From Desulfovibrionaceae bacterium (GTDB taxonomy: Bacteria > Desulfobacterota > Desulfovibrionia > Desulfovibrionales > Desulfovibrionaceae), in assembly GCA_031082225.1 (NCBI GenBank), contig JAVHLG010000008.1, positions 9,702 to 73,701 of the forward strand: a stretch of DNA of 64,000 nt. Reading direction: 5' to 3'. Under the pieces are notes generated by a model, which was not told the DNA's origin, made no database searches, and saw only the letters and a program-made list of their open reading frames with translations. The position numbers were made by a program, and so were the translations under genes. Shown here one piece after another: positions 57,829-63,204 of the stretch. The first letter of the stretch is position 1; the number at the start of each line of letters is the position of its first letter.

Positions 57829-57917
57829 AGTTATTGTTTATGCTGTGTGGTTAGTCGTTTTAAGCGTTTTGAGTTGTATGGAGTTGTAAGTAAAAACTAT
57901 CAAGAGTTTGTGTTTTC

Positions 57918-58109
57918 GAACGTGGCGTCAGCCTCATCCGCGCCTGGCGCGCGCATCTCGGCCTGACCCAGGACGAGGTGGCCCGCCGCATGGGCGTCAC
58001 CCGCCAGGCCTATCTCCAGATGGAATCCCTGGCCGCCAAGCCCCGCGTGGCCACGCTCAAAAAGATCGCCGCCACCATGGGCGTGGCCTGGGAACAGCTT
58101 CGGGCATGA
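57918..58109 (+). pseudogene. Truncated duplicate of XRE antitoxin (C-terminal 63 codons, no start)
   Basis: About 97% identical without indels to 59783..59974; encodes ERGVSLIRAWRAHLGLTQDEVARRMGVTRQAYLQMESLAAKPRVATLKKIAATMGVAWEQLRA. Confidence 0.9.
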
Positions 58110-58115
58110 AAAAGG

Positions 58116-58184
58116 GCCGCCGCCATGGGCGTGGCCTGGGAGTAACTCCTAGCATAAAAAAGGCTGCCCCGGGTGGTGAGGCCC
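58116..58184 (+). repeat. Third, diverged copy of antitoxin 3' end plus terminator hairpin
   Basis: gccgccgccatgggcgtggcctgggagtaactcctagcataaaaaaggctgccccgggtggtgaggccc aligns to the antitoxin 3' end and following hairpin. Confidence 0.7.
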
Positions 58185-59391: not shown

Positions 59392-59649
59392 GTGAACGAA
59401 ATCGAGTGGACCGCCAAGGCCCGCAAGCAATTCCGCCGCATCGACGCCGAACAGCGCGTAACCATTCGCGAAGCCGTCGGCGCGCTGGCGCAGTGGCCCC
59501 AGTGCGGAAACATCAAAGCCCTGGTCGGACGGGACGGCTACCGCCTGCGGGTGGGCCGGTATCGAGTCCTCTTTACCGTGAACACCAGAAATATTCCAGT
59601 GGTTATCCGCATTGAGGAGGTCAAAAAACGTGATGACCGCACATACTGA
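59392..59649 (+). CDS. RelE/HigB-like toxin (GTG start)
   Basis: MNEIEWTAKARKQFRRIDAEQRVTIREAVGALAQWPQCGNIKALVGRDGYRLRVGRYRVLFTV. Confidence 0.9.
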   Translation: MNEIEWTAKARKQFRRIDAEQRVTIREAVGALAQWPQCGNIKALVGRDGYRLRVGRYRVLFTVNTRNIPVVIRIEEVKKRDDRTY

Positions 59650-59974
59650 CCACCATATCCTGAAGGCCCCGGACGGCACGCCCCTCTATGTAGTGGTCCC
59701 GTGGGACGACTACGAGGAACACTTCGGCGGCAGGTCGGACGACGAAGTCACCATCCCCCACGCCGTGATCGTCATCGAGGACGAACGCGGCGTCAGCCTC
59801 ATCCGCGCCTGGCGCGAGCATCTCGGCCTGACCCAGGACGAGGTGGCCCGCCGCATGGGCGTCACCCGCCAGGCCTATCTGCAGATGGAATCCCTGGCCG
59901 CCAAGCCCCGCGTGGCCACGCTCAAAAAGATCGCCGCCGCCATGGGCGTGACCTGGGAACAGCTCCGGGCATGA
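59633..59974 (+). CDS. XRE-family antitoxin (HTH C-terminal domain)
   Basis: LIRAWREHLGLTQDEVARRMGVTRQAYLQMESLAAKPRVATLKKIAAAMGV; overlaps toxin gene by 17 nt. Confidence 0.9.
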   Translation: MTAHTDHHILKAPDGTPLYVVVPWDDYEEHFGGRSDDEVTIPHAVIVIEDERGVSLIRAWREHLGLTQDEVARRMGVTRQAYLQMESLAAKPRVATLKKIAAAMGVTWEQLRA

Positions 59975-60152: not shown

Positions 60153-61469
60153 TCATCCCTTCGGCGGCACGTCCGCATCCCCGGGCCGGGGCTTGGTCGC
60201 GTCCTCGGCCGCCGTCTCGGCCGCACTCGCAGCCGTCGTCCCGGCCGCAGTCCTGGCCTCAGTCGCAGTTCCACCCGCAGTCTCAGCCTTACCCGCAGCC
60301 GCACCCGCAGCATCAGTCCCACCCGCAGCATCAGCTCCACCCGCAGCAGCAGCTCCACCCGCAGCAGCAGCATCACCAGCCACCGCCGTCTCAGGCCCGG
60401 CCTTGGCCGGACTTCCCGGCACCCACCACCGCGCCGCCGCGCGCTTTTCCTCCGCGCCGGGCGTGGCCCGGGTCTTCATCATCGAAACCAGCACGGAACA
60501 GGCGATGATGCAAGCCGTGGCCGCAAGGGCCAGTTCCGTGGAGATCACCTTGCCGTCGTACCAGGCGTTCACGATCATCTTCACCCCCACCAGCACCAGC
60601 ACCAGCGACAGGCCGTATTTGAGGTAGTGGAAGCGGTGAATGATCCCGGCCAGGGCGAAATACAGCGCCCGAAGCCCCAGGATGGCGAAGACGTTGGAGG
60701 TATAGATGATAAACGGGTCGGTGCTGATGGCGAAGATGGCCGGGATGGAGTCCAGGGCGAAGACCACGTCCGTGATCTCGACGAGCGCCAGCACGATGAG
60801 AAGCGGCGTGATGTACGTCACCCCGTTTCGCCGCACAAAGAACTTCCGCTCCTCGAAGCCCTCGGTCACCCGGAAGTGGCGGCGCATGAACCGGTTGATG
60901 CGGTTTTTGGCGATGTCCGGCTCCTGGCCCACGGCCACCAGCATCTTGATCCCCGTGAACACCAAAAAGGCCCCGAACACGTAGATGACCCAGTGGAAGG
61001 CCGCCAGGATGGCCGCCCCGGCCAGAATGAGCGACCCGCGCAACACCAGCGCGCCCAGGATGCCCCAGAACAGAACCGTGTGCTGGCTGCGGCGCGGCAC
61101 GGAAAAGTGCAGGAAAATCAGCACGAACACGAAAATGTTGTCGATGGACAGGCTTTTTTCGATGAGGTAGCCGGTGAGATATTCCTTCCCGGCCTGCGGC
61201 CCGAGAAAATGGTAGACGCCCGCGCCGAAGGACAGGGCCAGGACCACATAGCCCAGGCTCAGAAGCAGCGCCTCGCGCACGCCGATCTCGCGCCCCTTGC
61301 GGTGCAGCACGCCCAGGTCCAGGGCCAGAAGCGCCAGGACCAACAGATTGAAGCCTATCCACATCCAGGCCGTTCCCACGTCGCGTCTCCGGATCGGTTC
61401 CGGGAACCGATCATTGGGATTGAAGGGTGAAACCCTGTCGTCGGGCGTCGCAGGCCGTGTCCGGGGCAA
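60153..61469 (-). CDS. TerC family membrane protein with low-complexity Ala/Gly-rich tail
   Basis: FNLLVLALLALDLGVLHRKGREIGVREALLLSLGYVVLALSFG; EKSLSIDNIFVFVLIF; ITDVVFALDSIPAIFAISTDPFIIYTSNVFAILGLRALYF. Start uncertain. Confidence 0.93.
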   Translation of the reverse strand: MPRTRPATPDDRVSPFNPNDRFPEPIRRRDVGTAWMWIGFNLLVLALLALDLGVLHRKGREIGVREALLLSLGYVVLALSFGAGVYHFLGPQAGKEYLTGYLIEKSLSIDNIFVFVLIFLHFSVPRRSQHTVLFWGILGALVLRGSLILAGAAILAAFHWVIYVFGAFLVFTGIKMLVAVGQEPDIAKNRINRFMRRHFRVTEGFEERKFFVRRNGVTYITPLLIVLALVEITDVVFALDSIPAIFAISTDPFIIYTSNVFAILGLRALYFALAGIIHRFHYLKYGLSLVLVLVGVKMIVNAWYDGKVISTELALAATACIIACSVLVSMMKTRATPGAEEKRAAARWWVPGSPAKAGPETAVAGDAAAAGGAAAAGGADAAGGTDAAGAAAGKAETAGGTATEARTAAGTTAASAAETAAEDATKPRPGDADVPPKG

Positions 61470-61585
61470 GGCATACCGCCGTGGCCGCCGTCGCTGCGGT
61501 CGCCGCCGTTGCCGGGCCGGGGCATCGCCCGGACCGGGGAGCGGGCGGCCCGCTCAGATGACGTCGCGCCGTCGCCGCACCGTGA

Positions 61586-61618
61586 CTGGCGAGACGGCCC
61601 ATGCCGCCGTCTCGCCAG
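61586..61618. repeat. Perfect 13-bp inverted repeat, 7-nt loop
   Basis: CTGGCGAGACGGC ccatgcc GCCGTCTCGCCAG. Confidence 0.85.
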
Positions 61619-61977
61619 ACGTTCCGTAGGGCTGGGGCGGGCGGCCCTCTCTGATGACGTCGCCGTCCTGGCCGTCGTCGCAGGCCGGGCCGGGGCAAGG
61701 GGGCATGCCGCCGTCCCGGTCGCCGTCTGGCGTCATGCGCCGCCAAGACTCCCGCAACCGGGCGGCCGGGCAGGGACTCCCGCATGGTCTTTTGTGCGGG
61801 AGCCCCTGTTTCGTCGCAGCCAGGGGCATGGCCCGAAAGGGCGCAGCCGCGCCCGGGACAAGGCGTCGTCAGGGACTGCTGGCTCTTCCTGATGGCGTCG
61901 CGCCGGACATGGTCATCCGCCGGACGCCCGCGACGATGCGACCCGTTCGGCCCGGCTCTCTCTGATGGCGTCGCGCC

Positions 61978-63000
61978 TCACATGGCCAGTTGCTGGATGC
62001 CCTCCAGGGTCCAGGACGGCCTGGGGGCCTTTTCGTCGCGGCTGATGCGCCAGACCTCGCGGACCTGGCTGGGGTTTCCGGCGGATTGGTCCTCGCGCAA
62101 AAGCACATCGAAAAAGACCGTGATCACGGTCTGCCCGCCCTGCGAAGCGGCCTCGAGCACCCGGGCCTCAACCATGAGGATTTCGGTCTTGCCCGGGGCC
62201 GGGTCTTCCTCGGCCTGCCGGGCGATCTCGGAAAACACCTCGGGGCTGGTGAACTGCCGGATGTCGTCCAGGTCGCGCGTATCCCAGGAGGCCTGCAACC
62301 GGGCGTACAGGGCCTTGACCCCGGCCAGGAATTCGGCCTCATCCATGCCTGCGGGCATGATCGGACGTGAAGCCGTGTCACCCAGATCCTGGCCCGGGGG
62401 CGTGGCGTGCAGCGCGCCCCAGCCGTCCGGCGTTCTGTCGGGGCCAGGGGCGCCGTATTGTGGGGTGGCGTAGGCAAAGCGCTCGCCGCCGGACGCGGCC
62501 TGCCCCGTGCGGGCCGTTTTGCGCCCCGCAAAGAGCCGGAAGAGCAGATACGCGCCGCCGCCAAGGAGCAGGATCTCCAGGATGCCGATGCCGCCGCCCA
62601 GGCCGCCGCCGGACAGCATGGAGCCGATGAGCCCGCCCATGAGCAGGCCGCCGAACATGCCGCCCATGCCGCCGAACATGCCGGGCCGGGCAGCGGGTGC
62701 GCCGGGTGCGCCGGGGGCGGCCTGACCGCCTGGCTGGTTGGGGGCGGCCTGCTGGTTGACGGTCGAGGTGTTGCGATCCGGCGCGGTGGGCTTGTCGTAG
62801 GGCTTGGAATAGGTGTCGCGGCTGCCGAAGGACTTGCCGCCGCCCACGCGCTTGGCCTCGGCCAGGTCCACGGCCATGATGAGCATGGCCAGGGTCAGAA
62901 GCGGGGCGGCGATGCGGCGCAGGACTGTCGCGAGGGCAGAGCCGCGCACAAGACGGGCGGCGGCAACGGGGGTTGCGGGGCATGGCGGATGGTGATGCAT
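61978..63000 (-). CDS. Tim44 domain-containing protein
   Basis: Start MHHHPPCPATPV at 63000 (ggagg RBS); Gly/Met-rich GLLMGGLIGSMLSGGGLGGGIGILEILLLGGGAYLLFRLF; C-terminal Tim44-like domain. Confidence 0.85.
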   Translation of the reverse strand: MHHHPPCPATPVAAARLVRGSALATVLRRIAAPLLTLAMLIMAVDLAEAKRVGGGKSFGSRDTYSKPYDKPTAPDRNTSTVNQQAAPNQPGGQAAPGAPGAPAARPGMFGGMGGMFGGLLMGGLIGSMLSGGGLGGGIGILEILLLGGGAYLLFRLFAGRKTARTGQAASGGERFAYATPQYGAPGPDRTPDGWGALHATPPGQDLGDTASRPIMPAGMDEAEFLAGVKALYARLQASWDTRDLDDIRQFTSPEVFSEIARQAEEDPAPGKTEILMVEARVLEAASQGGQTVITVFFDVLLREDQSAGNPSQVREVWRISRDEKAPRPSWTLEGIQQLAM

Positions 63001-63033
63001 GGAAGCCTCCAGTGTGGTTGTGCCGGAGGTCCC

Positions 63034-63082
63034 AAAAAAGAAAACGAGACTTCCGGCATGATTGCTCATGCAGAAGGTCTCG
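63034..63082 (-). terminator. Intrinsic terminator overlapping the riboswitch 3' strand (expression platform)
   Basis: CGAGACCTTCTGCATGA gcaa TCATGCCGGAAGTCTCG TTTTCTTTTTT (two mismatches, one GU). Confidence 0.88.
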
Positions 63083-63170
63083 CTCGCCGACTGGCGTCGA
63101 CGGCAAGGCCAAGCGTCGGTGAGACGCAGTGCTGTTGACCTTGCCCGAAAGAGCTACTCCCCTTCAAGGA
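63071..63170 (-). ncRNA. yybP-ykoY family (Mn2+) riboswitch aptamer
   Basis: Minus strand CCTTGAAGGGGAGTAGCTCTTTCGGGCAAGGTCAACAGC...CTTGGCCTTGCC...GTCGGCGAGCGAGACCTTCTG: conserved GGGGAGUAGC 5' and GAGCGAGACCUU 3' elements, P1 GAAGG/CCUUC. Confidence 0.9.
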
Positions 63171-63176
63171 GCTTTC

Positions 63177-63204
63177 AGGATACCCACTTTATCCTCAGTG
63201 TCAA
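63177..63204 (-). promoter_or_regulatory. Sigma-70 promoter of the riboswitch transcript
   Basis: Minus strand TTGACA-N16-TATCCT; predicted start falls at the riboswitch 5' end. Confidence 0.8.

Follow-up and report, generated by a model that had tools for sequence, protein, structure and literature searches.

The 64,000-nucleotide stretch of Desulfovibrionaceae DNA analysed here (the window) carries, on its minus strand and ahead of a gene for a Tim44-domain protein, what is probably a compact yybP-ykoY Mn2+ riboswitch with a five-segment expression platform that gates both transcription termination and access to the Shine-Dalgarno (SD) sequence; as a whole, this reading explains the locus best. 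The analysis yielded the anatomy of the element, its conservation, the capacity of its strands to form each helix, and an ensemble folding that flips as predicted, whereas we infer the binding of Mn2+, what happens to termination and translation in the cell, and a transcript shared with terC. The original prediction had described a complete ON-switch platform working by antitermination. The switch itself finds support in homology, in the sensing nucleotides and in the genes of relatives, but the description was incomplete, as it missed the anti-SD strand.

The minus-strand order is promoter, aptamer, terminator, anti-SD strand, SD and Tim44 start codon (Table 1). The promoter had been read from the sequence as TTGACA-N16-TATCCT; it is present with 10 of 12 matches, and 4 kb hold two such sites against 0.2 expected. 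Its position is kept in relatives: a script placed TTGAC 37-43 nt ahead of the aptamer in 29 of 30, and in the 30th (L015) a matching copy is visible by eye at about -42. The leader region folds much better than shuffled sequences do (z = -5.5; 0/200). Tim44 translation starts at 63000, and a longer listed open reading frame from 63069 begins within the terminator. The protein is a clear family member (PF04280, 64.5 bits against a cut-off of 29.6). The GTG start of terC was inferred from relatives, e.g., METAWMWIG in L016. Upstream, Pfam recognises the C-terminal end of an aldehyde ferredoxin oxidoreductase gene.

Table 1. Features of the riboswitch locus in window coordinates
Feature	Position	Strand	Remarks
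Promoter, sigma-70-like TTGACA-16-TATCCT	63177..63204	-	TTGACA 63204-63199, 16 nt, TATCCT 63182-63177
Compact yybP-ykoY aptamer	63073..63166	-	R1 match, 92.2 bits
P1.1	63165-63161/63077-63073	-	
L1 GGAGUA	63160-63155	-	
P1.2	63154-63151/63085-63082	-	
P3	63144-63136/63111-63103	-	
L3 5' strand ACAGCACU	63128..63135	-	1 nucleotide longer than ACAUACU
P4	63101-63096/63091-63086	-	
Terminator hairpin	63045..63082	-	5' arm 63082-63066, 3' arm 63061-63045
Segment 2, terminator 3' arm UGCCGGAAGUCUC	63046..63058	-	Predicted partner of segment 3 once P1 has formed
U-tract UUUUCUUUUUU	63034..63044	-	
Segment 3, anti-SD strand GGGACCUCCGGCA	63021..63033	-	Pairs with segment 2 (12/13 positions) or the SD region
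Segment 4, SD region CUGGAGGCUUCC	63001..63012	-	SD GGAGG 63010-63006
Tim44-domain protein	61978..63000	-	340 aa, riboswitch-linked paralogue; PF04280, E 1.6e-17
terC	60153..61379	-	PF03741, E 9e-52; probable GTG start 61379

The aptamer, GAAGGGGAGUAGCUC...GAGCGAGACCUUC (63165-63073), shares with the class defined by the Rfam model RF00080 the L1 sequence GGGGAGUAGC, an L3 of the UCAACA type with its discriminator adenosine, and the UGGC and GAGACC strands. In Xanthomonas oryzae, the invariant adenosine A48, which lies in ACAUACU next to L1, reads Mn2+ through its N7 (PMC6754395); its match in the window is A63133. The aptamer itself differs from the class in two respects. L3 has one extra nucleotide, and P2 is absent, with just 6 nt (63150-63145) separating P1.2 from P3, so that the four-way junction containing P2 is missing. 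The same 6-nt spacing without P2 is common to the relatives, and elements lacking P2 also occur before UPF0016 genes in other phyla. An alternative mini-P2 (GCUC/GGGC) was considered and rejected, because relatives cannot pair it, as judged by eye, and P1.2 (GCUC/GAGC) pairs in 27 of 27. Across an alignment of 27 distinct aptamers, GAAGGGGAGUAGCUC, GGUCAACA, UUGGCC and AGACCUUC are invariant, and the 28 pairs of P1.1, P1.2, P3, P3.2 and P4 are formed in 95.8% of cells. Eight pairs are altered on both sides, a result reached in 0 of 500 shuffles; P1.1 and P1.2 are invariant and therefore give no covariation information by themselves.

A search with RF00080 had been named as a check on the original prediction, and it gave no match at threshold: the window scores 11.6 bits (E 0.27), far below the gathering cut-off of 45, and a search of its own genome also returned no match. 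Across the order, RF00080 produced many sub-threshold matches, several of them plainly coding, and other elements of the same order likewise stay below the cut-off (34.8 bits for L035, located before terC, and 21.9 for L001). A motif pattern matched 22 of 150 genomes in the order; its reversed control gave 0 matches. A model built from 27 relatives (R1) scores the window at 92 bits, and 104 of the 347 genomes from the class contain a match. Applied to six RF00080 loci, R1 placed its best match on the RF00080 element every time. The genes behind R1 matches encode TerC, PF01699 exchangers, PF01169 (GDT1) proteins and P-type ATPases, and in other phyla the elements lie before UPF0016 (PF01169, GDT1) and P-type cation ATPase genes; Mn or cation exporter genes thus follow the relatives, as they do in the RF00080 class. 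The window also shares with that class a P1.1 that overlaps, and would compete with, the terminator. Despite the low Rfam score and the missing P2, we count the window element as a yybP-ykoY member in function and descent. That it is a Mn2+ ON switch acting by antitermination is a well-supported reading, given the R1 relatives, the cation-transporter genes behind them and the retention of the Mn-coordinating positions. Variants of the arrangement include a tandem pair of yybP-ykoY-type aptamers before a P-type cation ATPase gene in deltaproteobacterial MAGs (L072, 2511-2853; L086, 7337-7685) and an extra aptamer copy before the gene for a 184-aa protein with no Pfam match, where the SD relay is absent (L148:536-1087, genome G034).

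The terminator, CGAGACCUUCUGCAUGA-GCAA-UCAUGCCGGAAGUCUCG-UUUUCUUUUUU (63082-63034), has the 17-position stem that had been claimed for it, with 15 positions paired, and its 5' arm does contain the 3' strand of P1.1. What separates the U-tract from the start codon in the relatives is more than free linker: a strand of the (G)GACCUCCRGC type lies there, with two possible pairing partners, the terminator 3' arm (GCYGGAGGUC) and the SD (GGAGG). We number the five segments 0 (P1.1 5' strand), 1 (P1.1 3' strand), 2 (terminator 3' arm), 3 (anti-SD strand) and 4 (SD). At low Mn2+, segment 1 would pair with 2 and transcription would terminate, and in any read-through transcript segment 3 would pair with 4 and hide the SD. 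At high Mn2+, docking would stabilise 0:1 and free segment 2, which could then pair with 3 and release the SD. With both locks open together, the Tim44 paralogue would be made, and terC would be co-transcribed or served elsewhere. The conserved strand between terminator and start codon predicts translational control from the same aptamer.

Helix energies and ensemble folding are consistent with this relay. The 2:3 duplex was energetically better than those of shuffled linkers, with p <= 0.02 in every Tim44, compact-type TerC and CaCA1 (one Na/Ca-exchanger group) element tested, with the single exception of one CaCA1 element at 0.04; the 3:4 pairing was mostly significant. In the folded ensemble, blocking P1.1 gives 1:2 and 3:4 with a closed SD, and forcing P1.1 gives 2:3 with an opened SD. 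With P1 forced, the Tim44 leaders (n = 24) formed 7.7 bp of 2:3 instead of about 1, and their SD openness rose from 0.06 to 0.37; it rose from 0.01 to 0.36 in the TerC leaders (n = 9) and from 0.20 to 0.72 in CaCA1 (n = 4). The control groups without an anti-SD strand showed no rise (CaCA2, 0.27 to 0.20, n = 25; UPF0016, 0.31 to 0.17, n = 5). The window leader itself switches modestly (0.00 to 0.21), and L145, L094, L016 and L162 show little or no SD switch. These values describe folding at equilibrium rather than during transcription, and they refer to leaders ending at the AUG, which were used because adding 25 coding bases made SD openness noisy; the addition also shrinks the opening effect. 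The controlled SD of some TerC and exchanger leaders belongs to an ORF of 40-67 codons; in L002, L010, L003, L065 and L083 this short leader ORF and the transporter start overlap by 4 nt, which suggests translational coupling.

The relay is also retained outside the compact aptamers. In genus g14, a P2-bearing aptamer precedes TerC, and the chain is present with different, covarying letters; its strand pairs are GCCGGAAG/CUUCCGGC, GCCGGGA/UCCCGGC and GCCGGAGG/CCUCCGGC. Over 19 distinct strand pairs, 95.3% of 2:3 cells are paired, and both sides differ in 19 cells (0/2000 shuffles). The covariation test gives 0.001 within g14; within the compact Tim44/TerC set alone it is not significant (0.18), because the strands there are nearly invariant. 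Four Tim44 leaders (L155, L094, L082 and L242) have no usable U-tract and keep strands 1-4, as if the second lock alone remained. A class of dual transcription and translation attenuation was defined by Barrick and Breaker (2007) for terminator hairpins ending within 10 nt of the start codon (PMC2258182). The window resembles it in that a single aptamer is predicted to act on both processes, but its terminator stem ends at 63045, over 30 nt before the start codon at 63000, and it would switch a separate SD hairpin through an intermediate helix.

A simpler account, which we hold to be rather unlikely, is that of an ordinary yybP-ykoY transcriptional ON switch whose anti-SD strand forms a constitutive hairpin or arises as a by-product of the purine-rich SD, with no switching role. 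On the one hand, the terminator overlap suffices to explain regulation, antitermination based on P1.1 is the established mechanism of the class (PMC11087558), the CaCA2 and UPF0016 elements work without SD pairing, and some cross-pairing is expected from the SD alone since segments 2 and 4 are both purine-rich. On the other hand, 2:3 runs beyond the SD-like core into an AGC/GGC tail, is still present in elements that lost the U-tract, and shows covariation between genera.

Two further readings concern the aptamer itself. The missing P2 and the longer L3 could mark a yybP-ykoY-derived switch with altered metal preference: L3 is ACA-NN-ACU in the window and in most Tim44, TerC and CaCA1 relatives, as opposed to ACAUACU in X. 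oryzae, and the UPF0016-linked compact elements mostly keep the shorter form. Yet the discriminator adenosine, L1 and the other L3 contacts are all kept, and the downstream genes remain those of TerC and cation exchangers, so that we find such a change very improbable. The low RF00080 score would fit a terminator with a chance similarity and no riboswitch at all; this is scarcely credible, being already contradicted by conservation over genera with covariation and matching genes. A probable dual-gated Mn2+ switch is the reading we retain.

The original prediction had called Tim44 an unusual first gene. This holds for the open literature searched, where we found no paper on yybP-ykoY together with Tim44 (two mention yybP alongside Desulfovibrio), but within the order it is a conserved arrangement involving a distinct paralogue. 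Of 344 genomes of the class, 298 encode a Tim44 homologue. Among the 27 homologues most similar to the window protein, 26 follow directly on an R1 match. A 65-protein tree unites all 25 riboswitch-linked Tim44s with the exception among those 27 (L205, genome G089; support 92/83, only moderate because the tree is drawn open), copies without the switch fall outside, and the labels change 2 times versus 20 in shuffles. This grouping indicates that, in the order studied, the riboswitch marks a separate, putatively Mn-linked Tim44 paralogue. Like other bacterial PF04280 proteins, the window protein has a C-terminal Tim44 domain, a Gly-rich stretch and hydrophobic segments; it differs from them in belonging to the riboswitch-linked group. 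Residues specific to this clade revealed no obvious new metal site, and among 30 phylum-level PF04280 loci beyond the order none had an R1 match better than E 0.37. L205, the sole clade member that lacks the aptamer, instead carries a structured but unrelated leader (490-720, z -2.1) before a similar terminator; this leader has no Rfam match and was not found in two congeners. In another genome, a second riboswitch-linked Tim44 copy is broken after 98 codons (L150, G024:C7).

Tim44-terC linkage is close in several genera, with TerC about 60-160 nt behind Tim44 in L007, L015 and L154 (distances from tblastn), but in the window terC starts 598 nt past the Tim44 stop. No second riboswitch copy was found in this gap (61380-61980), which contains four 24-nt direct repeats of the GGCTCTYYCTGATGGCGTCGCGCC type, among others. 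Only analogy makes it likely that the tim44 leader also controls terC in the window. Separate riboswitch copies precede Tim44, TerC and a PF01699 exchanger in Desulfomicrobium-type genomes. A Mn riboswitch controls meeY in B. subtilis, and the TerC/MeeY metal chaperones, which associate with the Sec holotranslocon, metalate exported enzymes (PMC10550928). The window terC is of the same TerC family, and linkage and shared control suggest a possible Tim44-TerC partnership at the holotranslocon. Somewhat short of an even chance, in our view, is the fuller scheme, in which a Mn2+ aptamer works a five-strand double lock, kept where the terminator is lost, and thereby controls a Mn-dedicated Tim44 paralogue that joins TerC, perhaps at the translocon, to metalate exported proteins. 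Elsewhere (59392-59974 and 57917-58121), the window holds a gene pair for a ParE-type toxin (PF05016) and an HTH antitoxin and, 1865 nt upstream, a gene fragment that repeats a 205-nt stretch from the antitoxin end at 97% identity.

Beyond the original prediction, the analysis adds the missing P2 and extra L3 nucleotide, the helix chain past the terminator, and the Tim44 paralogue group. Since RF00080 misses compact members of the class, Mn regulons in this order are probably under-annotated. If the relay holds, a single metal aptamer here shuts two serial gates, a natural design that would limit leaky expression; variants found in nature with the second gate only make the double lock testable. 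Finally, one paralogue tied to manganese and TerC would offer a handle on the role of bacterial Tim44-domain proteins.
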